DNA from: Siderastrea radians
Taxonomy: Eukaryota > Cnidaria > Anthozoa > Scleractinia > Rhizangiidae
Assembly: GCA_964017195.1 (NCBI GenBank)
Contig: OZ024898.1
Location: forward strand, 9,871,130 to 9,935,129
Length of the DNA stretch: 64,000 nt
Direction: 5' to 3'
Shown: one piece after another, positions 6,998 to 31,144 of the stretch
Position numbering within the stretch: position 1 is the first letter of the stretch
How the letters are laid out: each line of letters starts with the position of its first letter
The notes under the pieces: model-generated
Told to the model about the DNA's origin: nothing
Databases searched by the model: none
Seen by the model: the letters and a program-made list of their open reading frames with translations, nothing else
Made by a program: the position numbers and the translations under genes

Positions 6998-7830
6998 ATG
7001 AAATCTTATTGTGTGAAACAGAAGAAACAGACTCTATGTGTGCCAGGAAGCGAACAATATGTGAGAGCCAAAAATAACAGACTTATGATGAAATGTACTT
7101 GTGCAGAATGTGGTATTACAAAAACCAAATTCGTTAAACAGGCGGGAAACGGGCTGGCCCGTCGAAAGGGGCGGGCGTACTAGATACAGTAGCATCAACT
7201 GGTACTGATTTATTGATTCACGACGGTATTCCTTGGCTTGGAAAAAAGGCAGTTGAAATGGGAAGATATTATGGATCAGAAGCCTTGAGAAACCCAAAAC
7301 TGCAGAAAAAGGCTATCGATTATGCTCTGGATAAGTTGAATCCAATGATTCAGAATGTCGGAAGTCAAGCTCTTGATCAATTATCTACTAAAATAAGACC
7401 GAATAGAAAGTATAAAACCGACAGAAAGGATTTGGATGGCGCTGGTGTTGATATACATAAACTAATTGGGAAAATACCGAAACCAAAAGCTGGATGGACT
7501 CCTGGAAAGTATAAATACATGGGACCATACAACCCCCTCGATGAACAGTTAGAGTATGATAGGGACACTGGAGAGGTCACCAAGTGGCACGTACAACCTT
7601 ACAATAAAGTGGATGAAATAGCAGCTCATCATGATATTTGTTATGATATGGGAAAAAACAAAGGTGAATGTGATAAGAAAATGGTAAAGTCACTTGATAT
7701 GATTCCTTATGGCCAGATGCCAAAATGGGGGCAAACAGCTCGGTTCTTGATTAACACAAAACAAAAGCTAGGTCTTGGGACAAAAAACGTAAAAGGCCGT
7801 CGAGTGAAGAAAACTGGCAAGAAAAATTAG
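6998..7830 (+). pseudogene. Zinc-ribbon plus parvovirus-type PLA2-like protein, frameshifted
   Basis: The first part (6998-7183) is a DUF5679-like zinc ribbon (YCVKQ..., CTCAECGITKTKF). After a one-base frame change at about 7160-7175 the frame continues to 7830 with LDTVAS... and a phospholipase A2-like core: YKYMGPYNPLD (calcium-loop position) followed by VDEIAAHHDICYD, holding the His-Asp catalytic pair and a downstream Tyr. This is the domain of parvovirus VP1 unique regions, which breaches endosomal membranes during entry. The calcium loop has Tyr where the usual motif has Gly (YxGPGN). Related Polintons carry the same two modules in one ORF, so this copy is probably broken or mis-sequenced. 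Confidence 0.7.
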
Positions 7831-8881: not shown

Positions 8882-9341
8882 ATGGAAAATTTCATTTATG
8901 AAGGAAAAAAACTGGACATTATCAAAAAGGATGATGATATATGGTTCCGTGCTAAGATTGTTGCTAACATCTTAAAGTATACAAATACTCGTAAAGCTAT
9001 TCGTGATCATGTTGATTTGGAAGATAAAATTACATTAAACGACCTCAAATCTTGGGGGAACGAATCGTTCCCCCTAAAAAATAACCATGTGATTTATATA
9101 AATGAATCCGGACTGTATAGCCTCATTTTGAGATCTGATATGGATAAAGCAAAGGAATTCAAACGATGGGTCACAAAAGATGTTTTACCATCAATCAGAA
9201 AAAATGGACGGTATGAATATAACCACAAACCCTTTAAAATGTTAACTTTTAGTATACAGTCAGAGTATGACTTACATAAAAAAGTGGTTAACTTTATAAG
9301 AAACAATTATCCAAAAGCACTTTTAAATGCAACATTAGGTG
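8882..9341 (+). pseudogene. BRO-N / VRR-NUC / zinc-finger protein, 5' half (interrupted by inner Polinton)
   Basis: ATG 8882 starts a BRO-N domain (about residues 1-105): IWFRAKIVANILKY, YINESGLYSLILRS and FKRWVTKDVLPSIRKNG. BRO proteins of baculoviruses, giant viruses and phages bind DNA and nucleosomes. The frame then runs through a linker (HKKVVNFIRNNYP) straight into the target duplication at 9336-9341. After removal of the inner element and one duplication copy, the frame is continuous with the piece at 31139-31494, which carries the nuclease and zinc finger. The gene was therefore intact when the inner element landed and is now disrupted. Confidence 0.85.
9336..9341. repeat. Left target site duplication TAGGTG of the inner Polinton
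   Basis: TAGGTG directly precedes the inner element's terminus (AGTAGTAAAG...). The same six bases follow the other terminus at 31139-31144. Six bases is the length made by Polinton integrases. Confidence 0.95.
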
Positions 9342-9596
9342 AGTAGTAAAGTGGGCCCATCTGGAGAAAATGCTGGCTTCTGATTGGTCGAGAGCGATCA
9401 CGTGACCAGAGGATGACGTCATGTCATTTCCGGTGGGGGAAACCGCTGACCAGTGGAAAAAAGGATCGCAGGCTCATGGGAACCGGAAGTCACGTGTTTT
9501 AGGATGGGAAACCGCTGACTAGTCTAAAAAATCGATCGTGGGCTCAAGGTCCGCGGAGAAAACGCGGGCTCAAAGTCCAAAGTCCAATTTTTGGAA
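9342..9596 (+). repeat. Left terminal inverted repeat of inner Polinton
   Basis: It matches the reverse complement of 30875-31138 almost base for base. Inside are a CRE/ATF palindrome in GATGACGTCATG, two E-boxes (CACGTG in ATCACGTGAC and GTCACGTGTT), and two related sub-repeats beginning GGGAAACCGCTGAC. The right copy has an extra GGGTGAAAA. Confidence 0.95.
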
Positions 9597-9694
9597 CGGG
9601 GGTAACCCTTGGAGTGAAAACCACACAAAAATGAATAAATCACGTTTATTGATTTGTTTACAATAACTGAGAAAATGGTTTTCCTGAGTGTTCC

Positions 9695-9919
9695 TTAATG
9701 TTCAATAGAGGGTCCCCACCATTGTTTTTGACATCGAGTTATTCTTCGCCATTGATTGTTGTCACGGATCCATTGTTGTAGTGGACGACGTCGATGATTT
9801 CTGATCAAAGGTATGGCAAAGGAACTGTAGAATGGGGGTGGTGGTGGTGGCGCCAAATGTTCTCGATCACAGTGATCACAATCGACGATCTTGTTTTTTG
9901 ATCTCTCACTGGTAGCCAT
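9695..9919 (-). CDS. Small downstream ORF overlapping the polymerase stop, PPFY motif
   Basis: The 74-residue ORF starts at ATG 9919, overlapping the last codons and TGA stop of polymerase B (9906), and continues to 9695. It has a CDHC pair, a proline tract ending PPPPFYS (a PPxY late-domain-like motif), and a W/R-rich end. The tight overlap copies the stop-start coupling seen elsewhere in this element, which argues for a real gene, but nothing else supports it. A minus-strand AATAAA lies downstream at 9645-9650. Confidence 0.4.
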   Translation of the reverse strand: MATSERSKNKIVDCDHCDREHLAPPPPPPFYSSFAIPLIRNHRRRPLQQWIRDNNQWRRITRCQKQWWGPSIEH

Positions 9920-12900
9920 AGGGGTAGGTCTTGAAGGTGCGGGGATCCAGGACTCTTTTGTCATAGACCAACTTGTACCATTTATGTTGGGGTTGAGTCA
10001 GCAAGGTGTAGTTTTTCGGGTTGAGAACAATTTGATAAGTCTTCGTCACTTGGATTTCCCGTGGTTTGGGAAGGGGGTTCTGGATTTCATCTTGGACATT
10101 TTGACGCATGACGTCATAATTCAGTTGCGCGTGTCCTTCACTGTTGAGTCGGAAGCCTCTGACCTTGCATTCGACCTTTCCTTTATTCGTAGTGTAGCCA
10201 TAATTCTTGGGTCCTCCGCTGACGAATTCTTCGATGTATTCCTGGTCCTTTAATTCGGAGGCGAAGTCCCCTAGATAGGATCCCAAGACAGGTTGAAATT
10301 GAGTGGGTGTTTCTTCCAGGTAGATGACGGAGTCGGTGTCAAAGTAGAGGACTCTTTCCCCTAAGCGTTGGAGGGCGTCATAGAGTTTGAGCCGGGCATG
10401 GCAGGTAGTGAAGCAGGCCACAAAAATGTTGAGGTTGGGTGAGACGCGGATGTCCTCTTTTTGATTTTGGTAGTGCACCTCTACCATTTGGTCATTGACC
10501 ACGGACACGTGACGTACGTCCAAGGAATCTTTGTCCAAAAACTGGTGGAAGGCATGAGGATCATCAAAGGCTTGAATTTGGGTCTTGTTGAGGCGTTGTC
10601 CAAACTTGCCCCACATGGAGTTGAGCATGAGCTTAGCTAGGGTACGCAACCCCGGATTTTTCTCGATTTTGTCGTACTCTAACTGGATGCCTTCATGCAG
10701 GAAATACTGTTCGATGTAACGTTGCTTTTCTTCTTCTGTCATGTCATCCTTAGGCCACCCACTAGCTTCTTGTTTGATTTTCAGCCAGGTATTGACATAA
10801 TCGGCGAAGAGGCCCTCACAGGTTTCTTCAAAATGCCAAGCTTCATAGATGTATTGAACTTGGTACCCCAATTCGACGGCTTTGACTAATTCGGGACTGC
10901 ACCAGGTACTTGTGAGGGTGCGTTGTTCGTCGGGGTGAGGGCAATGATAGGATCTGTCCAAAAGAGGTTTGGCCATTTCTTCTTTCACACAACGGGCACA
11001 GAGTGGAAAGAGTAGTTTGTCGTCATGACGGTAAGGCAGCACGGGATGGTACAATTCACGGGGAGGCAGGACTTTGCATTGGATGAGGCCAAAGTACTGG
11101 TGGATGTCCGTGTGACCTGGGGTGAAGATGATTTTCGGACATCGATGTAGTGAATTTTTTGGCCGGGGGTGATATGATGGTAGAGTTTGATGGCATTGGT
11201 ACGACCTCCACAGAAAGCATCCCGAGGTTCAAGTGATTGAATGAAGTTGAGTTCCCGGACGAAGGCGTCGATCTCTGGTTGGGTTTTTAGGAGGTGCTCC
11301 CATTCACATCCCCACATTTGAATGACGTTGTACCCTTGATTGGTAAGCTTTTGGACTTTGTCTTGGGTGGCGTCATAGACGTCCTGCATGGTCCGATCAT
11401 GGTTGCGGGGATGTTTTTCGTGGCGATGGGGAAAACAGGTAGGGCATCCGTGGGTGAAACAGCCTTGAAATTCGTAGACGGTGTGGGTGTCGGGGCAATA
11501 ACCATCCACATGGATGTTGGTCCCGGGGATCTTATACTCGCCTTGATTTCGGGCATGTTGAATGTACTGTGGGTTTGGATTGGCATTGGTCAGTAGATCA
11601 GCGGGGGTAAGATCTTGGAGGGCGCGTTGACGTAGTTGGTGATCGCACCAGGTTAACCATTGAATGGCTGGGAGGGAGTGGTTGATGTTGTTGTTTCTCC
11701 ACCCGTTATGACCGGCGGGTTCACTGGCAATACTGTTGGGGATCATCCGGTTCATACGTAAATCTCGATTACAAGCCGAGGCAATGGTGACGTGATCGAA
11801 GGGATTGAAGCCGGTCAAGTCTTCAAACATGCGTTTGAAAGTCAGACATCCTTGTTTGAGGAGTCGTACATCCGATTGACAATAGGCGAGCAATTCTTTC
11901 TGAAAGTCAAACACGACGTTCTTGGCACGCTGCTCTTGATGCCAGGTTTCAAAGGCTTGTCTTCCTTCGAGTGACATGGTCTCAGGCATGTAGTAATCGC
12001 GTGAGGGGAGGATGCCCACGTAGTGTTGATAATAATCACCGGGTATGTTGAACTTGTGGGGGAAATGCCCTTTGCAGAGTTCGGTCAAGCCAAAGGTTTT
12101 GGGAAAGGCAGAGAGGGGCATCTGGAAGAAACTCATCGAATCGATGAACCGGATGTGGTCATGCTTGATCTCTAAGAGTTTACACCCGTTGCGGAGTTGT
12201 TGGACGATCCGGTTGTCCCCATAGTATTCTTGGATGATAAAGTACCCGTCGTACCCCTGGAAGTTATGAGCGATGACATTGACTTGACGGGTATCGTGGA
12301 GAGTCAAGGTATCCAACCATTCCAGAAAGTCACGGATACAAGTGAGACCTGGGAAAGGCTTGGGTTCATCGTTGTCTTCGGTTTCGGCCACGACGAGATT
12401 GGCAATGTGTTCTTCGTGGGGTTGCATGGCTTCGATATCAAAGAAGACGTGTAAGGGTGGCAGGTCGTCCTCGTCCTCGGAAGAGGCAGGGGGTTCCGCG
12501 GCGGCGGCGGCGGCACCTCGTTTGGCGCGAGGACCTTTTTGACGGGTTCTCTTTCTCTTCTTTTGGTCTTGAGGTTTGGGGGCTCTTTGTATGAAACAAC
12601 GGTGTTTGTCGGCGTGGACGTACTGATGACAAGACGGGCAGTCTATGTGCCAACAACGGTGACGTTGAATGCGGGACAAGCCCACATTTTGTTGATAACA
12701 GTCAGGGCATCGGTATCGTTGAGAGCACACGGAGGTCTGGAGGCCCGTGATGGGTTTGCCAGCATGGGTCTTGCTTGAATGGGCTTCGAAACACGCGGGT
12801 CCGAAAAAGTCCCGATGACACGAGTTGCAACGTTGAGTGGCTTTCAGGTGTCGGGGGTAAGCATATTGAAAGTCTGGACAATCTTTCTGTCGACAGGCTC

Positions 12901-14029
12901 CGCACAACTTGGTCTTGGTGCATCGATGCAGTCCCTCGGTGTTGTAGGGTTTCCAACAATGAGCACACACATAACTGGACCCGAAAAATCCTGGCAATTT
13001 GGTGATGACATCGTAATGGTCTTGGTTGTGCAACAGGATCAGTTGTTTGTCAGAAAGGGGACCAAACGTCGTGATGTGAAACGATCGCTGCGCATCGACC
13101 AACAGGATCTGGTAACCGGTGAGGGATGGGGCCTGGCTGAAAGCCGTTAAGGCGTCATAGCTGCAAGGACCGAGTTGTACCTTGGCTTCATTCTGGAGGT
13201 CCAGAGCTAGGGTTCGCTGGATTTGACTTCCTTTTCGAATCGAATGCCATTTCGGGTGCTGGTCCACGCGAGCTTTGGCGACCACGAGGGCTCTGGCACA
13301 ACAGAGCTCATCATCATTTTGGATGCGGATGACCGAGTTTTTCTTGGCCGTTAACATGGCCATGGTGGGATGCCCTGGTTTCCCACGACGGGGTTTGCCG
13401 GTACCTTGAGGAGCATGATGGACTTGCGTAATGGACACTTGAAAGGAGTCATCCATTTCAAATTGTTCGTTGCTGTTGAGGGCTTGGGCTAAACGTTGGA
13501 ACAGAGCTTCCACCCGTTCTGTGTCTCGACGCCATTCACCTGCACGTAATCCCCACCCCTGAAAATTATTGTGCAGGCGATCGGAGGCGATGGTAAAGTA
13601 GAGGCGATCTTGATCGTGGAGGTCGGGGGTAGTGGTTAACACTTGATCGACGGCTCGACGTAATCCATCTTGGAGAGCTTGGGTTATATTTTGGCCTGGC
13701 ATCAAGTTCCCCCTTTGACGTAACTGGGTCTTGAAATGACGTTCTTGTACCCCCATGCGATCACTCTTCCGATTCACAAAAGGTTCTAAGTCAAATTGGA
13801 AGGTAACGTGCGCAGAGGGATCCAATCCACCCCCGCTTTGTTCCCATTGGTCCAAGGCCTCTTGACAAATCTCATCACTGTCTCCTAGCTCTTCGGTGCA
13901 AATCAAAGGTCCCACACAGGAATGGGTGTTGTCTTCCGAATCACTTAAGTCCAATCCGAGCATGGACATGATCTCACGTCTGGCGAGGCCACTTGGCCCC
14001 GCCACATTGTCGTCTTTGTCAGAGGACAT
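9906..14029 (-). pseudogene. Protein-primed DNA polymerase B of inner Polinton, disrupted at motif A
   Basis: ATG 14029 begins a large polymerase. Residues about 350-500 hold Cys/His clusters (CAHCWKPYN, CGACRQKDC, CPDCYQQN, CPSCHQYVH). Exonuclease motifs are FFDIEAM (near 12440), AHNFQGYD (near 12265) and YCQSDVRLL (near 11870). A Vsr-like nuclease segment (VDGYCPDT, YEFQGCFTHGCPTC) lies at about 11430-11550. Polymerase motif B NSMWGKFG (near 10610) and motif C YFDTDS (near 10340) are intact. At about 11138-11141 the frame changes just after YIDV, and the rest of the SLYP-type motif A region is missing, apparently a deletion of about 50 bases. The copy should not make active polymerase. A TATA box lies about 40 bp upstream. 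Confidence 0.85.
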
Positions 14030-14269
14030 GATCAGATGAAGTCACTGGAGATCGGGGTTCGTTTTTTATAGAGAACCAAAATGTCACGTGGGAGGGGAAG
14101 GAGCCAATCACTAAAACAGGGTGCCCCCCTAGAGAGGGGGTGCCCTAGGGAGGGGTGGGAAGGGGTGGGGGGACCCCCCTCCCCCCTCTCTAGTGAGGGT
14201 CCCTGCTGTATGACGGGAATGAATGAGAGACTATAAAACAGATCGCCCCTCGAGGTCAGTTATCTCAAC
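14030..14269. promoter_or_regulatory. Divergent promoter with two TATA boxes and a G-rich inverted block
   Basis: For the polymerase (minus) there is CTCTATAAAAAACG near 14068. For the plus gene there is ACTATAAAACAG near 14231, 30-40 bp before ATG 14270. An E-box (GTCACGTGGG) and CCAAT (GAGCCAATCA) sit between them. The segment GGGAGGGGTGGGAAGGGGTG (within about 14130-14200) is highly G-rich. Much of this region recurs in inverted orientation at about 29412-29645. Confidence 0.75.
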
Positions 14270-16106: not shown

Positions 16107-16460
16107 TTACAATTTCAAACGTTTCTTGGCTTGCATGATTTTCTTGACCACCCGTTCCGTCTTGGTTTTCTTGCCCGGTAATCGATCAATGGCTTGGATC
16201 ATCTTGGTATCGGCTTTCCATTTATCTTGCAAATTCTTAGCACGGCTGTAATCAATGTCGTGTTGTTTTGCAATCCGGTCCAAGCGATTTTTGCCGGGAT
16301 CCCCACGTTTCAGACGTTTGGCTAAATGCGTCCCAGGGCCCATGTATTGATAGCCAGGCCAATGAAATTCTTTGCCGGTTTTAGCAATCCATTTTTGGAC
16401 ATCCAAGGCCCCTCCTCGTTGACGGCGTTTGATACCCCTTCTCCTCCTGTGGGTGGGCAT
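16107..16460 (-). CDS. Parvovirus-type PLA2-like virion protein
   Basis: The 117-residue protein has a basic N-terminus (THRRRRGIKRRQRGG), then the PLA2 signature: YMGPG at residues 39-43 (calcium loop) and KQHDIDY with His67-Asp68 and Tyr71. This is the domain of parvovirus VP1u, a secreted-type phospholipase used to breach endosomes. QRGG-A at 14-18 resembles an adenain cut site that would release the basic leader. It is the last ORF of a seven-gene run; the upstream gene stops 3 nt before its ATG (TAA-ACA-ATG). A minus-strand AATAAA follows near 16080. Confidence 0.75.
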   Translation of the reverse strand: MPTHRRRRGIKRRQRGGALDVQKWIAKTGKEFHWPGYQYMGPGTHLAKRLKRGDPGKNRLDRIAKQHDIDYSRAKNLQDKWKADTKMIQAIDRLPGKKTKTERVVKKIMQAKKRLKL

Positions 16461-17637: not shown

Positions 17638-17915
17638 TGGATACAACACTTGTTAGGTTTTTTGGCATAGCCTTTGTCGATCAACCAACTGTTGTACCCT
17701 TTGGTACCCCCTCGTCTTTTATACGCTTGATATTGTTGTTTGTACCCCGATACCATCTTTCTCCCTTGGGCAGCACTCATTTGGGGTTTTTTCAAGGCCT
17801 TGACCAAATCACTTGTGACTTCATACCCCTTTTTCACGTCGACGAACCAAGGTATGCCTTCTCCTTGCTGGGTTCTTCTTTTTCTTTTTGTCCGTCTTCT
17901 TCTTCGGGGGGCCAT
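17634..17915 (-). CDS. Arg-rich core-like protein
   Basis: The 93-residue protein starts APRRRRRTKRKRRTQQGEG-I (a possible leader with a protease-type Gly site), followed by a helical segment (VTSDLVKALKKPQMSAAQG) and a Tyr/Lys-rich end. Composition suits a DNA-condensing core protein like adenovirus VII or X. Its ATG lies 82 nt inside the end of the upstream membrane-protein gene, and its stop forms ATGA with the next start. Confidence 0.6.
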   Translation of the reverse strand: MAPRRRRRTKRKRRTQQGEGIPWFVDVKKGYEVTSDLVKALKKPQMSAAQGRKMVSGYKQQYQAYKRRGGTKGYNSWLIDKGYAKKPNKCCIQ

Positions 17916-18520
17916 GGTTCTAAGAGTGTCGGACTGGGAGGGAGCGGCTTTTTATGGATCCAGTAGTCTTTGGGTCTCAAGGGACGAGGACATCCATCTA
18001 CATAGCATAGGGCTTCCACGGGCTGGTACACAAAATGACCATGGTACTCTTGCACACATCGTTTGGGTAACGGAGGGGTGAAATCCACAATGGTGTCATC
18101 CAACGTTTGCATCTTGATTAAAAATCCTTCCAGGTCCTCCAAGGGGACACCCCTCACATAGGTTTTCAATTCGGTCAAGGCTTTGGCATAGGTGGTAAAC
18201 GCAAACCGACTCATGGTCACTTTAAATCGGTACTGTTTAAAATCATTCCATCCTTTGACCACGGTGCCCACCGCCGCCAAACAGGCTACCAACGTACTGT
18301 TGTCCAACAGGGGGCCAGCAATCATGCCCGCGGCCATCAGGAGTAACGCCATCCCATTGAACAAGGCATTGATACACTTGTAATGATTCAACATTTTGCG
18401 ATAACACCACCATTGTTGATGGTAAAAGGCATACAAGGAATCCATCCGTTGTAATAATTCCGGTGGGAAGGGGATGCCAGGACGTCGAGATCCATTCAAT
18501 AACGACACGGGGGTTTTCAT
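17834..18520 (-). CDS. Two-transmembrane protein, SLATT-like arrangement
   Basis: ATG 18520 is used (TGA-GG-ATG after the upstream gene). Of 228 residues, 49-69 and 74-90 are hydrophobic (LFNGMALLLMAAGMIAG and STLVACLAAVGTVV), preceded by a Trp/Tyr-rich helix (YAFYHQQWWCYRKMLNHYK) and followed by an amphipathic helical region (FAFTTYAKALTELKTYVRG) and a Pro/Glu-rich tail. Helix, two close membrane segments, then a long helix is the layout of SLATT (SMODS/SLOG-associated 2TM) proteins. The resemblance is by eye only. The same element encodes a SLOG-like protein at 27851. An alternative is an unrelated viral membrane protein. Confidence 0.6.
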   Translation of the reverse strand: MKTPVSLLNGSRRPGIPFPPELLQRMDSLYAFYHQQWWCYRKMLNHYKCINALFNGMALLLMAAGMIAGPLLDNSTLVACLAAVGTVVKGWNDFKQYRFKVTMSRFAFTTYAKALTELKTYVRGVPLEDLEGFLIKMQTLDDTIVDFTPPLPKRCVQEYHGHFVYQPVEALCYVDGCPRPLRPKDYWIHKKPLPPSPTLLEPWPPEEEDGQKEKEEPSKEKAYLGSST

Positions 18521-19458: not shown

Positions 19459-20112
19459 TTATACTCGCTTTTGATAGGTGCGCGTCCATCCTTCGTCTTT
19501 TAACAGGTGACTCAATAGACGTTGTTGATCGGAGGAGGCCGGGTGTAAATCCAATACCAAATACCCATACGGTCGTGTGGTGGCTTGATGAAACGTCTCC
19601 AACGTGTCTTTCCAAGTCGTCGGAAACGATTGCAGCATGACGTTGCGTACCCCTAATTGATCCCGGGGGTTCTTGAACGCCACAATGTAATGGGCATTGC
19701 GGGATATACTTTTGGCATAGCGCCCCACGGGAAACATGTCTTGGCACAAGTACAACACCGTCACCCCTTGATGATGCGAATGTTTGGTGAATAAATCCAA
19801 CACGCGTTTATCGTGACTTCCTTCGTCCATTAAATCGTCCAAGACCAGGACCCCATGTCCTTCAGGAAACCATTGGACCAACGCGTCATGATCGGGAATC
19901 CCTTCGTGAAACACCACCCCATGATCTTGCATGCCTTGAAATCGATCTTGCCACGCCCCATAACAATAATGCATTTGGGTCGGTGGGGTGTCAAACAACT
20001 CGGGGTTGTCTACCAAGAGTTTTTCCGTAAACACGGTTTTGCCACATCCCGAAGGACCCACCACCAAGATAGAGGAGGGGGTGTGAAAACGAAACGGTTT
20101 CCCCGTTTGCAT
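19459..20112 (-). CDS. DNA-packaging ATPase of inner Polinton
   Basis: The 217-residue P-loop ATPase has Walker A GPSGCGKT (residues 19-26), Walker B LVLDD (89-93), and a downstream YLCQDMFPVG segment with a Gln-Asp where the sensor usually lies. Same family and size as the outer element's ATPase but very different in sequence. It would drive genome packaging. ATG 20112; its stop overlaps the TATA box of the next transcription unit. The tRNA-like gene sits between it and the protease gene. Confidence 0.88.
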   Translation of the reverse strand: MQTGKPFRFHTPSSILVVGPSGCGKTVFTEKLLVDNPELFDTPPTQMHYCYGAWQDRFQGMQDHGVVFHEGIPDHDALVQWFPEGHGVLVLDDLMDEGSHDKRVLDLFTKHSHHQGVTVLYLCQDMFPVGRYAKSISRNAHYIVAFKNPRDQLGVRNVMLQSFPTTWKDTLETFHQATTRPYGYLVLDLHPASSDQQRLLSHLLKDEGWTRTYQKRV

Positions 20113-20272: not shown

Positions 20273-20812
20273 TTAATCATTCCGTTGATGATACGGATGA
20301 CAACAAAGTTGATACCATCTGGCTTCTTGGCCTACAATCAATTGTTGAACGCGTTGACCGGCTTGATGGTCATTGCTTACATAATCATGATCGGAAAACT
20401 CATTTAAAAAGTCTTGCAAGGTCCGTCCACGGGCTTTGGCTTTCAAGTACAACAAGGCGTAATCCCCACAACTCTTGCTTGAAATGGTTTGCAGGGACTT
20501 GCCATTGGTCACCACATACTTCCAATGTTTCACAATCCAATCTCGTAACGGGGTAGCTTGCACGTACGTGTCCATGGGCAAGGCATAACTGTCGAGGATT
20601 TCACACACGTTTCCATCCGTCCACACCGCTAACCAATGTTGTCCCGGTTGATCGTGCGGGTCGGTGTTGACAATGTACCCTTGGCGTTGGGTTTTGACAG
20701 GACTCTTGGGTAGTCGATCACAGGCCACCGTCCCGTAAAACATCGGTTTCAATTGCGGGTCGTCTCGGGCTAAATAATCCAATTGCACATTATTCAAGGC
20801 CACGTGTTCCAT
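20273..20812 (-). CDS. Adenain-like cysteine protease of inner Polinton
   Basis: The 179-residue protein has His59 in GQHWLAVW, Asp74 in ILDSYALP and Cys115 in SKSCGDYALLYL, the catalytic order of adenovirus protease and C48 peptidases. Substrates are probably the element's virion precursors, several of which carry (Q/M)xGG motifs. It starts 5 nt after the major capsid stop (TGA-AGAAG-ATG). A minus-strand AATAAA sits at the stop codon near 20270. Confidence 0.85.
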   Translation of the reverse strand: MEHVALNNVQLDYLARDDPQLKPMFYGTVACDRLPKSPVKTQRQGYIVNTDPHDQPGQHWLAVWTDGNVCEILDSYALPMDTYVQATPLRDWIVKHWKYVVTNGKSLQTISSKSCGDYALLYLKAKARGRTLQDFLNEFSDHDYVSNDHQAGQRVQQLIVGQEARWYQLCCHPYHQRND

Positions 20813-20817
20813 CTTCT

Positions 20818-22218
20818 TCAGTGCTGGTAAATGTTATACAACACGGCTCCGTTCCTGTCAATCTCCAGCAAGTTCTCAAATTCTCCATAGACGAGCACGG
20901 TTATATTGACACCGGGGGCAGCTCCAAATTCCAAGACCAGCTGTAAATCGCCCGTTTGCTTGGGGTTGAGGTTTTGACTGTCAGCACAGCCATTGGCCAC
21001 ATTGTCAAACATGTACAAGGTACAATTTTTCCGATGGCCCCAATCTCCTAGTTCTACCATATTGCCTTTCTTTTTACACCAAGCCCCACTGGCTTGCAGA
21101 AAACGGAAGTAGCCTAGATTATCTCGGCTGCCATTGTTGTGCACTAACTGCAGGGTTTCATAAGGGTATTCTTCGCCTTTGACAATCTGTTTAATGGACG
21201 TCAGTCCAAATTTCTGGAAACAGAACGGATCTCGGGTCACATCTCCATTGAAGGCTCGGCTGTCCAGTAACCCCACAATCAATCGGTCCGGTATTCTGTT
21301 TTGAAACAGGTTAGGGATATCAAAGCGGACCAGGTTGTTTTGCATGCTGAACGTGCGGATTTCACTGCGGACGGTCGGGTAAGCAGCCACTTGGCCTTCA
21401 TTGTGTCTTTTTTCAGACAAACTGTGGTAGATGGCGTCATTCAAACGCAGTTGGCAGAGATGAAACCGTAGTTTCACATCGCCTTCCATCAATCGACCAG
21501 CTAGACCCACTCCATTGAAAAACAGGCTGGGGCCATTGAAATGAAATTTCATCTTGATTTCAATGCCAGGCACTAACAGTTTGCCGGTATGAAAGACTTC
21601 CAGGTGGGGGGTAAACACCAGACTGTGGGTGACACCTCCTGCATACTTGGCGGTTTCGGCGATCATGGCGTCCAACGCCCCTTTGTGATTGGCAGGGAGA
21701 GCGGTCCAGTCTGCATGCGGTCCAGCTTTGTTGGTGTTGTTGGCCGTCCATGCGGGTGGGAAATCCACTTGATTGAACCATCCTTGGGGTCCCAACACGG
21801 TCTTGCCATCTTCTCGGTCATAATTCAGCAAGGTTTCTAGGTAAGCTTTGTAATGATAAGTGTCGGATTGTGGACTGATCAACGTGCCATTCAATTGCAA
21901 GTCAATTTGTTTGATGATGGAATGGGCCAAATTGTTGACGGGCCACAATTTTTGAGCGGCCACCAAGTCATCGTTCGTACTTTTCTGCAATCTCAATTCC
22001 ATGGTAAAGTAACTGCGTCCCAAATCCACAAAATCGTCTAATCCAGGAATGATGAATTCCATGGGATTGATACCCGTGGTGGTGGGTTGAATGGTAACCA
22101 TGCGATAGGCATTGATGCTAATGTCGGTCGGCGGCACCTTGAAAATCCGTAACGCCGGGTTGACGGTCCCTTCGGAACGCTCGTGAGCCGGGGCGGTTTG
22201 TGTACTCACGTCAGGCAT
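20818..22218 (-). CDS. Major capsid protein (double jelly-roll, F54H12.2-like) of inner Polinton
   Basis: The 466-residue protein belongs to the widespread Polinton major-capsid family known from C. elegans F54H12.2. Seen here: MEFIIPGLDDFVDLGRSYFT in the N-terminal strands, IIKQIDLQLNGTLISPQSDT, the YLETLLNYD loop, GKLLVPGIEIKMKFHFNG at the domain middle and VLEFGAAPGVNITVLVYGEF near the C-terminus. It forms the capsid hexons. It is the third ORF of a four-gene run (22777 to 20273), 2 nt after the upstream stop (TAA-AC-ATG). No lesion is visible. Confidence 0.88.
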   Translation of the reverse strand: MPDVSTQTAPAHERSEGTVNPALRIFKVPPTDISINAYRMVTIQPTTTGINPMEFIIPGLDDFVDLGRSYFTMELRLQKSTNDDLVAAQKLWPVNNLAHSIIKQIDLQLNGTLISPQSDTYHYKAYLETLLNYDREDGKTVLGPQGWFNQVDFPPAWTANNTNKAGPHADWTALPANHKGALDAMIAETAKYAGGVTHSLVFTPHLEVFHTGKLLVPGIEIKMKFHFNGPSLFFNGVGLAGRLMEGDVKLRFHLCQLRLNDAIYHSLSEKRHNEGQVAAYPTVRSEIRTFSMQNNLVRFDIPNLFQNRIPDRLIVGLLDSRAFNGDVTRDPFCFQKFGLTSIKQIVKGEEYPYETLQLVHNNGSRDNLGYFRFLQASGAWCKKKGNMVELGDWGHRKNCTLYMFDNVANGCADSQNLNPKQTGDLQLVLEFGAAPGVNITVLVYGEFENLLEIDRNGAVLYNIYQH

Positions 22219-25227: not shown

Positions 25228-26397
25228 TTAGCGTCGTCGGCGTCGTTTGCGCGGTCGAAGGGACGTCACGTCACCACGAGCAATCCAACTATTGTACTTG
25301 TCTGGCCACCCTTTCCACTTGACCAACCAACGATCTTTTTGACGCTTAAGTACCTTTTCGATGCGAAATACATCGGACACCTGGACTTTTTGTAAATCCT
25401 CCTCGTAAAACGTGCCTTGGATGGGGGTCTCATCCCATTCCTGAATCTTATACGTGGGCACGGGGCCCGGGATCACACGATGTACCACAAACACTTCTTC
25501 GGTCCAACCGGGGAGATAGCCTTTTTCAAAGGTACGATGAATCGTGTTGAGACGAACCCGATCCCCGACTTTGAATTGGGGTTTTTTGTAGCCTTTCAAT
25601 CGTTTGCTGTACAATCGTTTCCACACGGCTTCTTCGTTGTCCCACGTCACGTCTTCGGGGGGCATACCAATACTTCGATGACGGGTGGCATTGTACCCTT
25701 GCACCAACTGGGGTAACACATTGTCAAAGCGTAAGGTGTTGGCCGTGGTCAAATAACGGTACAATCGTTCTTTCAAGGTCCGATTAAATCGTTCCACCAC
25801 ACTGGCTTTCGCATCCCCTTCGGTGGAAAAATGGTGAATGTCTTGCTCCTCCACCCATCGTTGAAAGGTCCGATTGTAAAATTCTTTCCCTCGATCCGTT
25901 TGCAATCGGTTGGGGTGACGTCCTTGTCTCACAATCTTCTCAAAGGCTTTCACGAGGGCCACGCCGGTTTTGGTTTTCAACGGTTGGACCCATGCGTACT
26001 TGGACAAGACATCCACGACGGTCAACAAGTAGCGTATACCCCGATTATGTTTAGCCAAACGTTGCACTTCCACTAAATCCGCCGCCCATTGATCGTCTAA
26101 CCCTCCCACGACCACGGGTAAGGTCGCAAAACGACGACGTCGGGGTTTATGCAAGGTGTAGCCCACATCCTGTTCCAAGAGTCGTTGGGCTTTTTTCAAA
26201 GGGAGACCCTGGGCTTTGGCAAACCGTTGCACCCCACCTAAACTCCCCGGGGCGCTAGGATCCTGGTAACGGCTTAACCATTGTTGCGAGACATTGCTTT
26301 TCTTCTTCGTTGACGACACAGGGCGTTTGGTTCTCTTCAACCCTGAGGACGAACTCCAGCGTTGGGTTTTCTTTCGAGGGGCCATACTTTTTGGCAT
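25228..26397 (-). CDS. Retroviral-like integrase with chromodomain of inner Polinton
   Basis: The 389-residue protein has a basic, disordered N-terminal 35 residues, a zinc-free helical leader, then the DDE core with Asp107 (AADLVEV), Asp168 (QTDRGKE) and Glu202 (SVVERFNRT). An SH3-like C-terminal domain and a chromodomain (FRIEKVLKRQKDRWLVKWKG) follow, with a final RKRRRRR tail. It integrates the element; the 6-bp duplication around the element is its product. ATG 26397 lies 61 nt inside the preceding ORF. Complete, with no lesion, unlike the polymerase. Confidence 0.9.
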   Translation of the reverse strand: MPKSMAPRKKTQRWSSSSGLKRTKRPVSSTKKKSNVSQQWLSRYQDPSAPGSLGGVQRFAKAQGLPLKKAQRLLEQDVGYTLHKPRRRRFATLPVVVGGLDDQWAADLVEVQRLAKHNRGIRYLLTVVDVLSKYAWVQPLKTKTGVALVKAFEKIVRQGRHPNRLQTDRGKEFYNRTFQRWVEEQDIHHFSTEGDAKASVVERFNRTLKERLYRYLTTANTLRFDNVLPQLVQGYNATRHRSIGMPPEDVTWDNEEAVWKRLYSKRLKGYKKPQFKVGDRVRLNTIHRTFEKGYLPGWTEEVFVVHRVIPGPVPTYKIQEWDETPIQGTFYEEDLQKVQVSDVFRIEKVLKRQKDRWLVKWKGWPDKYNSWIARGDVTSLRPRKRRRRR

Positions 26398-26748: not shown

Positions 26749-27636
26749 TTAAAAGAGACCTAGACGACCACAAGTGACGGTCTCGAGATCTTTCTGCCAG
26801 TTGTCCACACTGTCACTGTACTTGGGGGGTGGCGGCGCTGGGGCGACCATCATTTCTTGACGGTTCTTGAGCTCTTGAATTTCTCGCAACAATTGTTTCT
26901 CATAATCTGTCAGGGGGCGATCCTCTTTCCTTGGAGCTCGAGGGGGCGGGCCAGGGATGTCATAACCCCTCTTGGGATATCCTTGCGCATCACGGGTAGA
27001 CAAAGGAGATTCAGCTTGTTGGTCGGCTTTCTTGGGCGGGTTGTCATGAAACCAACTCCAGTACTTGGGGCCCATGGGTTGATCGGCCCATCGGAAGAAG
27101 CCACACTGTTTCTTGGAACAATTCAGAAACAAGCGATCGGGGTTCTGGGTCGAATGGCTCTGTTGCAGCGTGGCGGGTTCACGGCAAAAACACTGCAAAC
27201 AAGTCCACATGTCCAACACTTCTACATGAGGTTGACTATACACGGCTTTCATATACTCCAGGGCTTGATCTTGTCCACAAAACAGCAAACACGGTTGCAT
27301 GGGACATTTCACATACTTCCATCCCTTTTGAGATTCTCGGGCCTCCAAACGCACGTCATGGCAAGGGCATACCATATAGTCCACCTTTTCATTGTTGCCT
27401 TTGACTTGATGATGACCCACCTCATTGTCAAACACTGTCATCAGAGTGAATTGTGGTGTAGATTGCTCCGCCATGTCATTCAATTCTTTCATCATATCTT
27501 CCACCGCCGCTCGGGTATCTTCCACCACCTCGCGTACCCCCGGATCACAGTCTACGGGCGTCATCGTTTGAATAGTCTTCTTCTTCTTCTTCCCCTCTGG
27601 GGGATGGGTTGTCTTTCTCTTCCGATCGACTGACAT
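26749..27636 (-). CDS. GRF-type zinc-finger protein with PPKY motif
   Basis: I choose ATG 27636 because the TATA box (TATAAAAAGG, about 27671-27682) lies downstream of the more distal ATG 27702. The 295-residue product has a Lys-rich start (KGKKKKK-like), then two Cys clusters: CPCHDVR ... KCPMQPCLLFC (about 90-120) and CLQCFC ... LNCSKKQCGFFRW (about 146-182). The second is a clear GRF zinc finger as in topoisomerase III and NEIL3, which binds single-stranded DNA. A Pro-rich tail with PPPPKYSD (a PPxY motif) and a coiled segment follows. Likely a DNA-replication accessory or virion protein. Confidence 0.65.
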   Translation of the reverse strand: MSVDRKRKTTHPPEGKKKKKTIQTMTPVDCDPGVREVVEDTRAAVEDMMKELNDMAEQSTPQFTLMTVFDNEVGHHQVKGNNEKVDYMVCPCHDVRLEARESQKGWKYVKCPMQPCLLFCGQDQALEYMKAVYSQPHVEVLDMWTCLQCFCREPATLQQSHSTQNPDRLFLNCSKKQCGFFRWADQPMGPKYWSWFHDNPPKKADQQAESPLSTRDAQGYPKRGYDIPGPPPRAPRKEDRPLTDYEKQLLREIQELKNRQEMMVAPAPPPPKYSDSVDNWQKDLETVTCGRLGLF

Positions 27637-27850
27637 CGTGCTCAAAGGTTTTTCATCCCCTACCACCGAGGCCTTTTTATACCTAGGACCCTTGGTTGTC
27701 ATTGGTCAGCTTTTCATAACCCTATAAGGACGTCTCATCTTCCCATTGGTCAGCTTGTTATGACCTTATAAGGTCCTCTTGTCTTCCCATTGGTCAACTG
27801 TCTCTATTTAAGGAGCTCCCTTGCTCCCTGAATCGTCATTCTCCAAAACC
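27637..27850. promoter_or_regulatory. Divergent promoter with CCAAT, CArG and TATA boxes
   Basis: Three ATTGG (reverse CCAAT) boxes are spaced about 43 bp apart (27701, 27745, 27788) as part of a repeated block CCCATTGGTCA(G/A)CT. CCTTATAAGG at 27764-27773 is a perfect CArG/SRF site, with a near copy at 27720-27729. TATTTAAG at 27805-27812 serves the SLOG gene and TATAAAAAGG near 27676 serves the GRF gene. Confidence 0.7.
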
Positions 27851-28543
27851 ATGCCCCCAGACATCATGATCGGAGAACAAGATCTCGGTGCCTTGGAACT
27901 GCAAGTGGGTCATGGTCATGTGGTCTACACCGGGGGAGCCAAAGGTACGGATGCCCTCGTCGAAGAACAGGCCAAACACTTTGGGATGCAACTCGAAGTC
28001 CTGGTCCCCCCGAACCATCCTCGAGCCACTTTCATCACCCCTTCTACGGTGGAAGTCCTGATGTTGGCCAACCCTCATCTTCACCAGGCGGCAGAGAAAC
28101 TAGGCAAAAAAATGCCCAGTCATTTTTACACCCTGCAATTGCTGCAACGCAATTATCAATTGGCCAAGAAAGCCCATACCATCTATGCCTTTGGCATCTT
28201 GGAACCGGATCATAAACGCGTGAAAGGAGGCACTGGTTGGACTGTGCAATTGGCTATGGATCAAGGCAAACCCGTCTACCTGTTTGACATCCCCAGTCAA
28301 TCATGGTACCGCTCGGACCATTACTACCAAGTCAATGAGAATGCCGCCACCCTGGTCACTGGCAGTCAATTTGTTCCTTGGGGACCTAAAAAGCCCACCC
28401 TTCATCAAAGCAGTGCTATTGTGGGATCCCGGGATGTGGACGAGAAAACCCGAGCCGAAATTCAAGCCTTGTTCAACCGCACCTTCTGTCTCCCCGAGAA
28501 CATTGATCAATTACGTATGGAACTGGAAGACTTTCATTTGTAA
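27851..28543 (+). CDS. SLOG-like (DprA/LOG family Rossmann) protein
   Basis: ATG 27851 gives 230 residues. The core reads HVVYTGGAKGTDALVEEQA (residues 23-41) and later IYAFG (111-115), GGTGWTVQLA (126-135) and KPVYLFD (140-146). These are the nucleotide-binding loops of the SLOG superfamily, which also contains DprA, LOG and sensor proteins of nucleotide-signalling and defence systems. The fold is established; the ligand is unknown. It has its own promoter on the plus strand, away from the structural genes. A C-terminal part (SSAIVGSRDVDEKTRAEIQA) looks like a second short domain. The element also encodes a two-membrane-segment protein with SLATT-like layout. Confidence 0.7.
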   Translation: MPPDIMIGEQDLGALELQVGHGHVVYTGGAKGTDALVEEQAKHFGMQLEVLVPPNHPRATFITPSTVEVLMLANPHLHQAAEKLGKKMPSHFYTLQLLQRNYQLAKKAHTIYAFGILEPDHKRVKGGTGWTVQLAMDQGKPVYLFDIPSQSWYRSDHYYQVNENAATLVTGSQFVPWGPKKPTLHQSSAIVGSRDVDEKTRAEIQALFNRTFCLPENIDQLRMELEDFHL

Positions 28544-29357: not shown

Positions 29358-29775
29358 AAGTCAACCAAGCATGAACTCAAAGCTAGGAGTGACGCCCTGG
29401 GGCCTCCCTTGACTTATATACCCCGATCCGCGCAATGCCTCATGGTCTATCTAAGGAGGGGGGAGGGGGGTCCCCCCACCCCTTCCCACCCCTCCCAGGG
29501 GCACCACTGGGGTCTCCTCGTCATCCAGGATTTCGTGGCAGATCAAATCATCGTCCTCGTAATCCTCATACAGGATTTGTGGCACCCTGTGCCCTGGTTG
29601 GTTCATCACCCCTCCCACGTGACCTTTGGGTCTCTATAAAAAATCGCCTCCACTCCCCGTTTTCACTCCCAAGCCAGCAAGCAGTCAAGCAAGCAGGTAA
29701 CCAAGCAAGCAAGCAAGCAAACGGGATAGTGGTAAGTCATTTTTTTTATTCCTCATCTCTTTTCAATCTAAGTCG
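29358..29775. promoter_or_regulatory. Inverted copy of the polymerase promoter region
   Basis: The G/C block (about 29448-29510) is the reverse complement of 14130-14200, and CCTCCCACGTGACC ... TCTCTATAAAAAATCG (about 29610-29650) is the reverse complement of the polymerase E-box/TATA block (about 14062-14100). The TATA box therefore points rightward (plus), but the next gene on that side (29776-30825) is on the minus strand. A CAGGTAACC splice-donor-like site lies near 29695, followed by a run of (GCAA)n. Confidence 0.7.
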
Positions 29776-30825: not shown

Positions 30826-30874
30826 CGTGACTACTCCTTCACTTAGGGTTTACCCCATTTTATACCTACCCCTC

Positions 30875-31138
30875 TTCCAAAAATTGGACTTTGGACTTTG
30901 AGCCCGCGTTTTCTCCGCGGTTTTCACCCACCTTGAGCCCACGATCGATTTTTCACACTCGTCAGCGGTTTCCCATCCTAAAACACGTGACTTCCGGTTC
31001 CCATGAGCCCGCGATCCTTTTTTCCACTGGTCAGCGGTTTCCCCCACCGGAAATGACATGACGTCATCCTCTGGTCACGTGATCGCTCTCGACCTATCAG
31101 AAGCCAGCATTTTCTCCAGATGGGCCCACTTTACTACT
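30875..31138 (-). repeat. Right terminal inverted repeat of inner Polinton
   Basis: This is the reverse complement of 9342-9596, with a few substitutions and one extra GGGTGAAAA. It ends CTTTACTACT at 31138, directly followed by the target duplication. Confidence 0.95.
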
Positions 31139-31144
31139 TAGGTG
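31139..31144. repeat. Right target site duplication TAGGTG
   Basis: This second copy of the 6-bp duplication lies at the boundary between the inner element and the interrupted outer gene. Confidence 0.95.

Follow-up and report, generated by a model that had tools for sequence, protein, structure and literature searches.

Identity and possible role of a phage-related SLOG protein encoded by a Polinton of the coral Siderastrea radians

What does a SLOG-family gene do inside a mobile element of an animal genome? We addressed this question in a 64,000-nucleotide stretch of Siderastrea radians DNA (GenBank assembly GCA_964017195.1, contig OZ024898.1, positions 9,871,130 to 9,935,129; hereafter the window), in which a Polinton encodes a SLOG protein at positions 27851–28543. 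The original prediction, made from the letters alone, had read this gene as a nucleotide sensor and, together with a SLATT-like membrane protein gene of the same element, as a possible signalling or defence module. Its SLOG fold, Polinton and SLATT-like gene withstood analysis, while the circular permutation of the domain and its phage DprA-like family had been missed. The gene product almost certainly has a SLOG fold in circularly permuted form and falls in the phage DprA-like clade (phrog_768); we tentatively suggest that it counters host signalling by binding a ligand.

Identity and fold of the SLOG protein

The open reading frame (ORF) was verified as 230 codons with a single, terminal stop. 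Assignment to SLOG was based on fold and on nucleotide-loop motifs, and both were present: the predicted model and the GGAKGTD and GGTGW loops, together with a match to phrog_768 (DprA-like) in PHROGs (E 1.6e-10), bear out the predicted domain. Membership of phrog_768 was indicated by this profile match and by a collinear alignment. The profile search proposed with the original prediction was thus clear in PHROGs; in Pfam it was weak, with PF02481 (DprA) at 18 bits and PF12694 (cpYpsA) at 12.9 bits failing to reach their curated cut-offs of 29.6 and 26.2, and YAcAr as a further weak match. Across 21 SLOG members, weak Pfam matches at E ≤ 0.1 were to DprA in 15, to YAcAr in 12 and to cpYpsA in 7. 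A search with the SLOG protein brought up 313 candidates, of which 180 were relatives at E ≤ 1e-3; the listing covers the best 120 of these.

The permuted order, with the GSR strand at the C-terminus and the rest in order, was recognized chiefly by a structure match of the predicted model to PDB 3imk, obtained on a second look (17% identity, 132 aligned residues). 3imk is a member of Pfam PF12694. When C-terminal pieces of SLOG members were searched separately, two of the eight matched PF02481 positions 44–70, weakly (E 0.07–0.10), and one other matched the unrelated DUF7795 (E 0.016). A viral structure library gave seven matches at E ≤ 0.001, of which the four named ones were all phage proteins; next came giant-virus proteins of Medusavirus, Pithovirus and Clandestinovirus (E 0.006–0.008). 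PDB sequence searches with the SLOG protein or profiles yielded spurious matches only. PADLOC gave a single weak match, to the ShosA profile (E 0.006 over just 27 residues). The Pfam matches of 17 of the ORFs in the inner element included no PRTase, the ShosTA partner; in PMC9122126, a DprA-like protein and a PRTase from a P2-phage hotspot protect against T7 and lambda.

Conservation in the genome and among phages

The genome (804.8 Mb, 439 contigs) contained 1,306 and 1,245 unscored first-look SLOG candidates with two queries. Of the best 150 places scored from each set, 149 were stop-free inside. From these two ranked lists we chose 20 copies by hand, not at random (7 + 13), with 82–100% protein identity; all 20 lacked a stop in the aligned part, three matches beginning at residue 6 or 9. 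The median ratio of non-synonymous to synonymous substitution rates (dN/dS) was 0.124 for SLOG (Nei–Gojobori, 209 of 210 pairs, dS > 0.05, 21 copies; pairs not independent). Medians for the other genes were 0.105 (ATPase), 0.119 (phospholipase A2, PLA2), 0.178 (SLATT), 0.206 (protease), 0.209 (putative capsid) and 0.255 (GRF), making SLOG the third most constrained among the seven genes compared. The Polinton exists in many copies, in which SLOG is kept under constraint. A chance or overcalled ORF is ruled out by the stop-free genome copies and the low dN/dS.

Among phages, tblastn with the SLOG protein found 60 records, 23 of them covering at least 80% of the query; identity was 25.5–32.3% in the 20 rows listed. 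A combined phage and Polinton profile retrieved 153 relatives from 171 IMG/VR stretches; 80 of these loci were retained, near-duplicates included. For residue counts three short loci were dropped, the remaining 77 were reduced to 62 distinct ones and four named phages were added, giving 66 phage rows (the Pylas row repeats one of the loci, L007) to set beside 14 Polinton rows. G28, G32, D34, L97, R100, N101, G126-G127-T128, W130, W152, G192 and R194 are conserved in both groups: none of them occurs in fewer than 61 of the 66 phage rows or 11 of the 14 Polinton rows. G28, G32, D34 and R100 were present in all 66 phage rows, N101 in 61, and W130 in every phage and Polinton row. Phage and Polinton rows have these pocket-loop residues in common, with identity to the Pylas domain otherwise at about 30–37%. 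Residue 133 was Gln in 14/14 Polinton and 49/66 phage rows, and Glu in one phage row and no Polinton row. The plain LOG/lysine-decarboxylase-like enzyme that the original prediction had allowed for is ruled out by this Gln at the catalytic Glu position.

In a maximum-likelihood tree of 80 rows, drawn with a midpoint root for display only, the 14 Polinton rows formed one group on a stem of 2.63 changes per column (support 100/100), with the Pylas rows as weakly supported neighbours (61/82). The tree makes a phage-like origin of the Polinton SLOG plausible, though it gives neither direction nor donor. IMG/VR was also scanned with the SLOG protein and its family profile, with the SLATT protein and its profile, and with the capsid ORF; none of these queries brought up a relative of the inner Polinton, and a plasmid search with one phage SLOG member found no match.

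The phage domains occur in varied settings: 33 of the 80 IMG/VR loci carry them in ORFs of at least 500 aa, six in ORFs of 260–500 aa and 37 in a shorter ORF, with the match split across frames in four. In Klebsiella phage Pylas the permuted SLOG (L001 6001–6525) lies inside a 3,819-aa virion RNA polymerase (phrog_2206), residues 984–1112. Such placement within giant phage proteins, one of them a virion RNA polymerase, is compatible with delivery as infection begins. Two of nine larger phage SLOG proteins scanned (39 have ≥ 260 aa) contained DUF4326, located C-terminally in L040 and L068 (901 and 963 aa). Two more giant SLOG proteins (4,378 and 1,952 aa) held little besides phrog_768. Of thirteen neighbour proteins taken from three named phages, few recurred around the 80 loci: a dNMP kinase near three, the two Cr30 recombination endonucleases near two and the other ten near none.

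The host Polinton, its promoter and the SLATT-like gene

That the SLOG gene belongs to a Polinton, as predicted, is confirmed by what surrounds it (table 1). The terminal inverted repeats are 98% and 96% identical in two matched blocks, a 6-bp target duplication (TAGGTG) lies at 9336–9341 and 31139–31144, and the element has the polymerase B, integrase, packaging ATPase and protease of Polinton/Maverick elements, the last two as weak matches. This inner, GC-rich Polinton sits in a second, low-GC Polinton and interrupts one of its ORFs; the rejoined flanks give one open frame of 269 codons, presumably resembling a Bro-N plus VRR-NUC type gene. Outside the inner Polinton, nothing in the window matched SLOG or SLATT at E below 0.3. 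We also observed a PLA2-like gene in each of the nested Polintons (16107–16460 and 7258–7830) and a 55-nt GC-rich inverted repeat, 93% complementary (14139–14193 and 29451–29505), flanking 15.3 kb within the inner one.

Table 1. Features of the SLOG gene, its promoter and the inner Polinton (positions in the window)
Feature	Position	Strand	Remarks
SLOG gene	27851–28543	+	230 aa; circularly permuted SLOG domain, residues about 22–213
GGAKGTD loop	27932–27952	+	residues 28–34; equals second strand-loop of ordinary SLOG domain
RN pair	28148–28153	+	residues 100–101; counterpart is RN of DprA RNR motif
GGTGWTVQL loop and helix	28226–28252	+	residues 126–134; Gln133 at LOG catalytic-Glu position
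AIVGSR	28415–28432	+	residues 189–194; first SLOG strand relocated to C-terminus
Divergent promoter array, shared with GRF gene	27700–27799		ATTGG boxes at 27701, 27745, 27789; CArG-like CCTTATAAGG at 27764
TATA-like TATTTAAG and Inr-like TCATTCT	27805–27842	+	at 27805 and 27836; before SLOG ATG at 27851
Inner Polinton	9342–31138		21,797 bp; terminal inverted repeats 9342–9604 and 30867–31138
Protein-primed-type DNA polymerase B	9906–14029	-	PF03175; broken, two ORFs in window copy
Phospholipase A2-like protein	16107–16460	-	PF08398, 4e-11
SLATT-like two-transmembrane (2-TM) protein	17834–18520	-	228 aa
Packaging-type ATPase	19459–20112	-	weak Pox_A32 match
Adenovirus-type protease	20273–20812	-	weak match, PF00770 0.0047
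Putative major capsid protein	20818–22218	-	by position and length; no Pfam match
Retroviral-type integrase with chromodomain	25228–26397	-	PF00665, PF00385
GRF zinc-finger protein, divergent partner	26749–27702	-	PF06839 6.8e-6; likely start 27636

Upstream of SLOG, three CATTGGTCAGCT-type repeats 44 bp apart lie within 27700–27799, and TATAAAAA at 27674–27681 on the minus strand faces the GRF gene. The names TATA-like and Inr-like, for the sites at 27805 and 27836, follow the promoter consensus sequences; CArG-like sites were no commoner in the window than by chance. From these motifs the region is read as a divergent RNA-polymerase-II-type promoter that serves both SLOG and the GRF zinc-finger gene and lies apart from the capsid block. 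We compared 17 of the 20 copies, omitting three whose match does not start at residue 1. In 12 of the 17 the positions of the TATA-like box and of the ATTGG boxes, two to four in number, were nearly unchanged, and the remaining five had a further stretch between promoter and SLOG. Two of these extra stretches, when translated (L120 842–1072; L132 869–1099), contained an ORF of 76 codons that overlaps the start of SLOG in a different frame. In one relative (P0033) this ORF is fused to SLOG; it had no Pfam match at E ≤ 1.

The SLATT-like gene was also where the original prediction had placed it, in the same element. Its SLATT_1 match was below cut-off (20 bits against 26.3; 21.8 against 41 in another scan), and 17 of 28 relatives of the 228-aa protein matched SLATT_1 at E ≤ 0.01. 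The predicted model of a 98%-identical relative (P0123) consists of two long helices (mean pLDDT 65). The genome also contains, at many places of equal score, a second SLATT subfamily whose open frames are about 347 aa long.

Co-occurrence of the two genes, which the original prediction had proposed as a check, holds within this element family. A SLATT match of 178–228 of the 228 residues was in the expected place in 18 of the 20 SLOG copies, two of them with a stop; of the other two copies, one (L105) had a 38-aa SLATT piece and in the other (L096) the stretch ended before SLATT, with the capsid gene further along. Comparing the best 150 of 2,172 SLATT candidates (the window's included) with the 299 SLOG places listed, we found SLOG 9.8–11.6 kb from SLATT, consistently to one side and on the other strand, in at least 95 places, a lower bound because both lists are incomplete. 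No pairs remained after a 200-kb shift, and none were on the same strand. Protein clusters had 18 contig sizes in common (115 for SLOG, 116 for SLATT), one of 12,341 bases, which serves as a proxy only. Co-residence shows one element family with both genes, not joint action. The bacterial layout, with the genes adjacent or fused in one transcription unit, was not found: SLATT lies between the PLA2 and ATPase genes, about 10 kb from SLOG on the other strand, and an operon-type module is unsupported by this arrangement.

Possible functions and comparison with known systems

The reading that we favour, at a probability of about 0.4, is ligand-binding counter-signalling. The SLOG protein would be expressed apart from the structural genes, probably early, and its GGAxGTD, RN, GGTGW and GSR loops would form one pocket for a nucleotide-type ligand. 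In the Polinton proteins compared, Gln takes the place of the LOG catalytic Glu, so that the protein would most likely bind this ligand, by sequestering or sensing it, and not hydrolyse it. The ligand would most likely be an NAD-derived signal of ADP-ribose or cyclic ADP-ribose type, which the host would make when infected or when the element is active and which SLOG would blunt; SLATT would be a separate membrane protein on the virion or entry side. The low dN/dS argues against a fast-evolving antagonist of a host protein, and a fixed small ligand would fit it better than a co-evolving host-protein target; between a small ligand and DNA, dN/dS does not decide. Viral SLOG domains have been predicted to sense or break ADP-ribose-type host signals and to counter them (see also PMC7824862), and DUF4326 has been proposed to act in ADP-ribose processing (both in PMC9503650).

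Several observations weigh against this reading, from the fold upwards. The fold comes from a predicted model (pLDDT 78) for which Foldseek returned nothing in the PDB at E ≤ 0.001, and all Pfam matches of the protein are below curated cut-offs. For the permutation, the DprA match was missing in six of the eight C-terminal pieces, the window's own included, and hhalign paired SSAVVGSR with Smf 109–119 weakly (E 0.25, probability 0.2%). The nearest Pfam and phage labels are DprA, that is, DNA recombination. Judged by the neighbours in three named phages, the 80 loci have no signalling context that recurs, and a single literature search gave nothing joining cnidarians, TIR domains and cyclic ADP-ribose. 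Finally, catalysis may proceed through other residues, such as D34.

This last point also bears on a nucleotide or nucleoside hydrolase or transferase of LOG or DrHyd type, which would alter nucleotide pools or degrade a host signal; with Gln at the LOG catalytic position, we consider it unlikely. The permuted domain and phage DprA-like family make DNA handling a serious rival to signalling, possible though doubtful: SLOG would bind, protect or anneal single-stranded DNA (ssDNA) displaced in protein-primed replication. In a local hhalign to Escherichia coli Smf/DprA, SGLARGID, RN and SGSLVTA..ALEQGREVF found counterparts (E 0.043 in a single comparison, probability 1.2%), and SLOG dN/dS is nearly as low as that of the packaging ATPase. 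DprA, however, has N-terminal and winged-helix domains besides its SLOG domain, for which 230 aa are too short, and here the domain is circularly permuted. Fusions to virion RNA polymerase and DUF4326 are not obviously recombination-related. In phage Cr30 the SLOG gene adjoins recombination endonuclease genes, one annotated as a T4 gp47 homolog, but their homologs lie near just 2 of the 80 viral loci. Jumbo-phage DprA/Smf has been proposed as an extra ssDNA-binding protein (PMC7824862).

A two-gene system in which a nucleotide signal, sensed or made by SLOG, opens a SLATT membrane pore, excluding rivals or killing the cell, seems to us quite unlikely, and the signalling or defence module of the original prediction is unsupported so far. 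The co-residence counts and shared contig sizes (one about 12.3 kb) speak for it, as does the association of SLOG and SLATT in bacteria given in the Pfam description of SLATT_1. The linkage nevertheless represents one element family and not independent events, and the genes are on opposite strands in separate blocks, SLATT amid capsid and packaging genes. Unscored first-look candidates numbered 2,172 for SLATT against 1,306 for SLOG, which suggests that SLATT may occur without SLOG. SLATT is moreover widespread in cryptophyte Polinton-like viruses (n = 868), where endosomal escape has been proposed, in a 2025 paper whose main text lacks the word 'SLOG' (PMC12220804). If the PLA2-like protein were an endosome-escape factor, it would make SLATT redundant for escape. 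That SLOG is a hitch-hiking relic, of no function for the element, is very improbable: the broken polymerase gene of the window element would suit a relic, but the selection estimate (dN/dS about 0.12, 20/20 copies stop-free) contradicts it.

Within counter-signalling, a bolder version appears doubtful to us: the phage-type permuted SLOG of animal Polintons would be a standing sponge for NAD-derived alarm molecules of animal innate immunity, of phage-like origin and kept under strong selection across a multi-copy family, with the undescribed 76-aa product in some copies as a helper encoded alongside or fused. If true, no counter-signalling protein of this sort would have been known before from a mobile element of animals. 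A 2022 survey places viral SLOG domains currently only in tailed phages (caudoviruses) and giant viruses (PMC9503650). We found no literature treating SLOG together with Polintons (most subscription papers being outside the search), no DprA in the listed entries on Polintons, adintoviruses or Maverick elements, and no SLOG, SLATT or DprA in a word search of two preprints on related viruses. That SLOG in an animal Polinton is conserved nearly as strictly as the packaging ATPase raises the questions of whether animal mobile elements bind NAD-derived or other nucleotide signals and whether the SLOG gene was exchanged between phages and Polintons. The comparison also defines which pocket-loop residues are conserved in a large family of phage proteins.

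Among known proteins, LOG and lysine-decarboxylase-like enzymes have the SLOG fold in common with the Polinton protein; the catalytic Glu of their PGGxGTxxE motif is Gln in it. DprA/Smf pairs with it in SG.A.G.D, RN and the SG(S/T)-helix, whereas the order of the first strand is reversed (GSR precedes SG.A.G.D in DprA) and the extra DprA domains are absent here. The cpYpsA or 'molybdenum carrier' protein 3imk differs in length (158 against 230 residues) and is 17% identical. The SLATT of Polinton-like viruses is likewise a 2-TM SLATT-type protein in a Polinton-type element; the window SLATT differs in belonging to an animal Polinton and matching SLATT_1, whereas PMC12220804 names SLATT_4 for transcripts. 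The closest likeness is to phrog_768 phage proteins, such as Escherichia phage PBECO4 gp006 and the Pylas domain, which have the permuted order, a collinear domain and the motifs GGAxG(A/S/T)D, RN, GGT(G/A)W and GSR/GTR. The Polinton SLOG stands apart from them by its long stem, HQ before the GSR strand, Thr33 and its encoding by an animal element.
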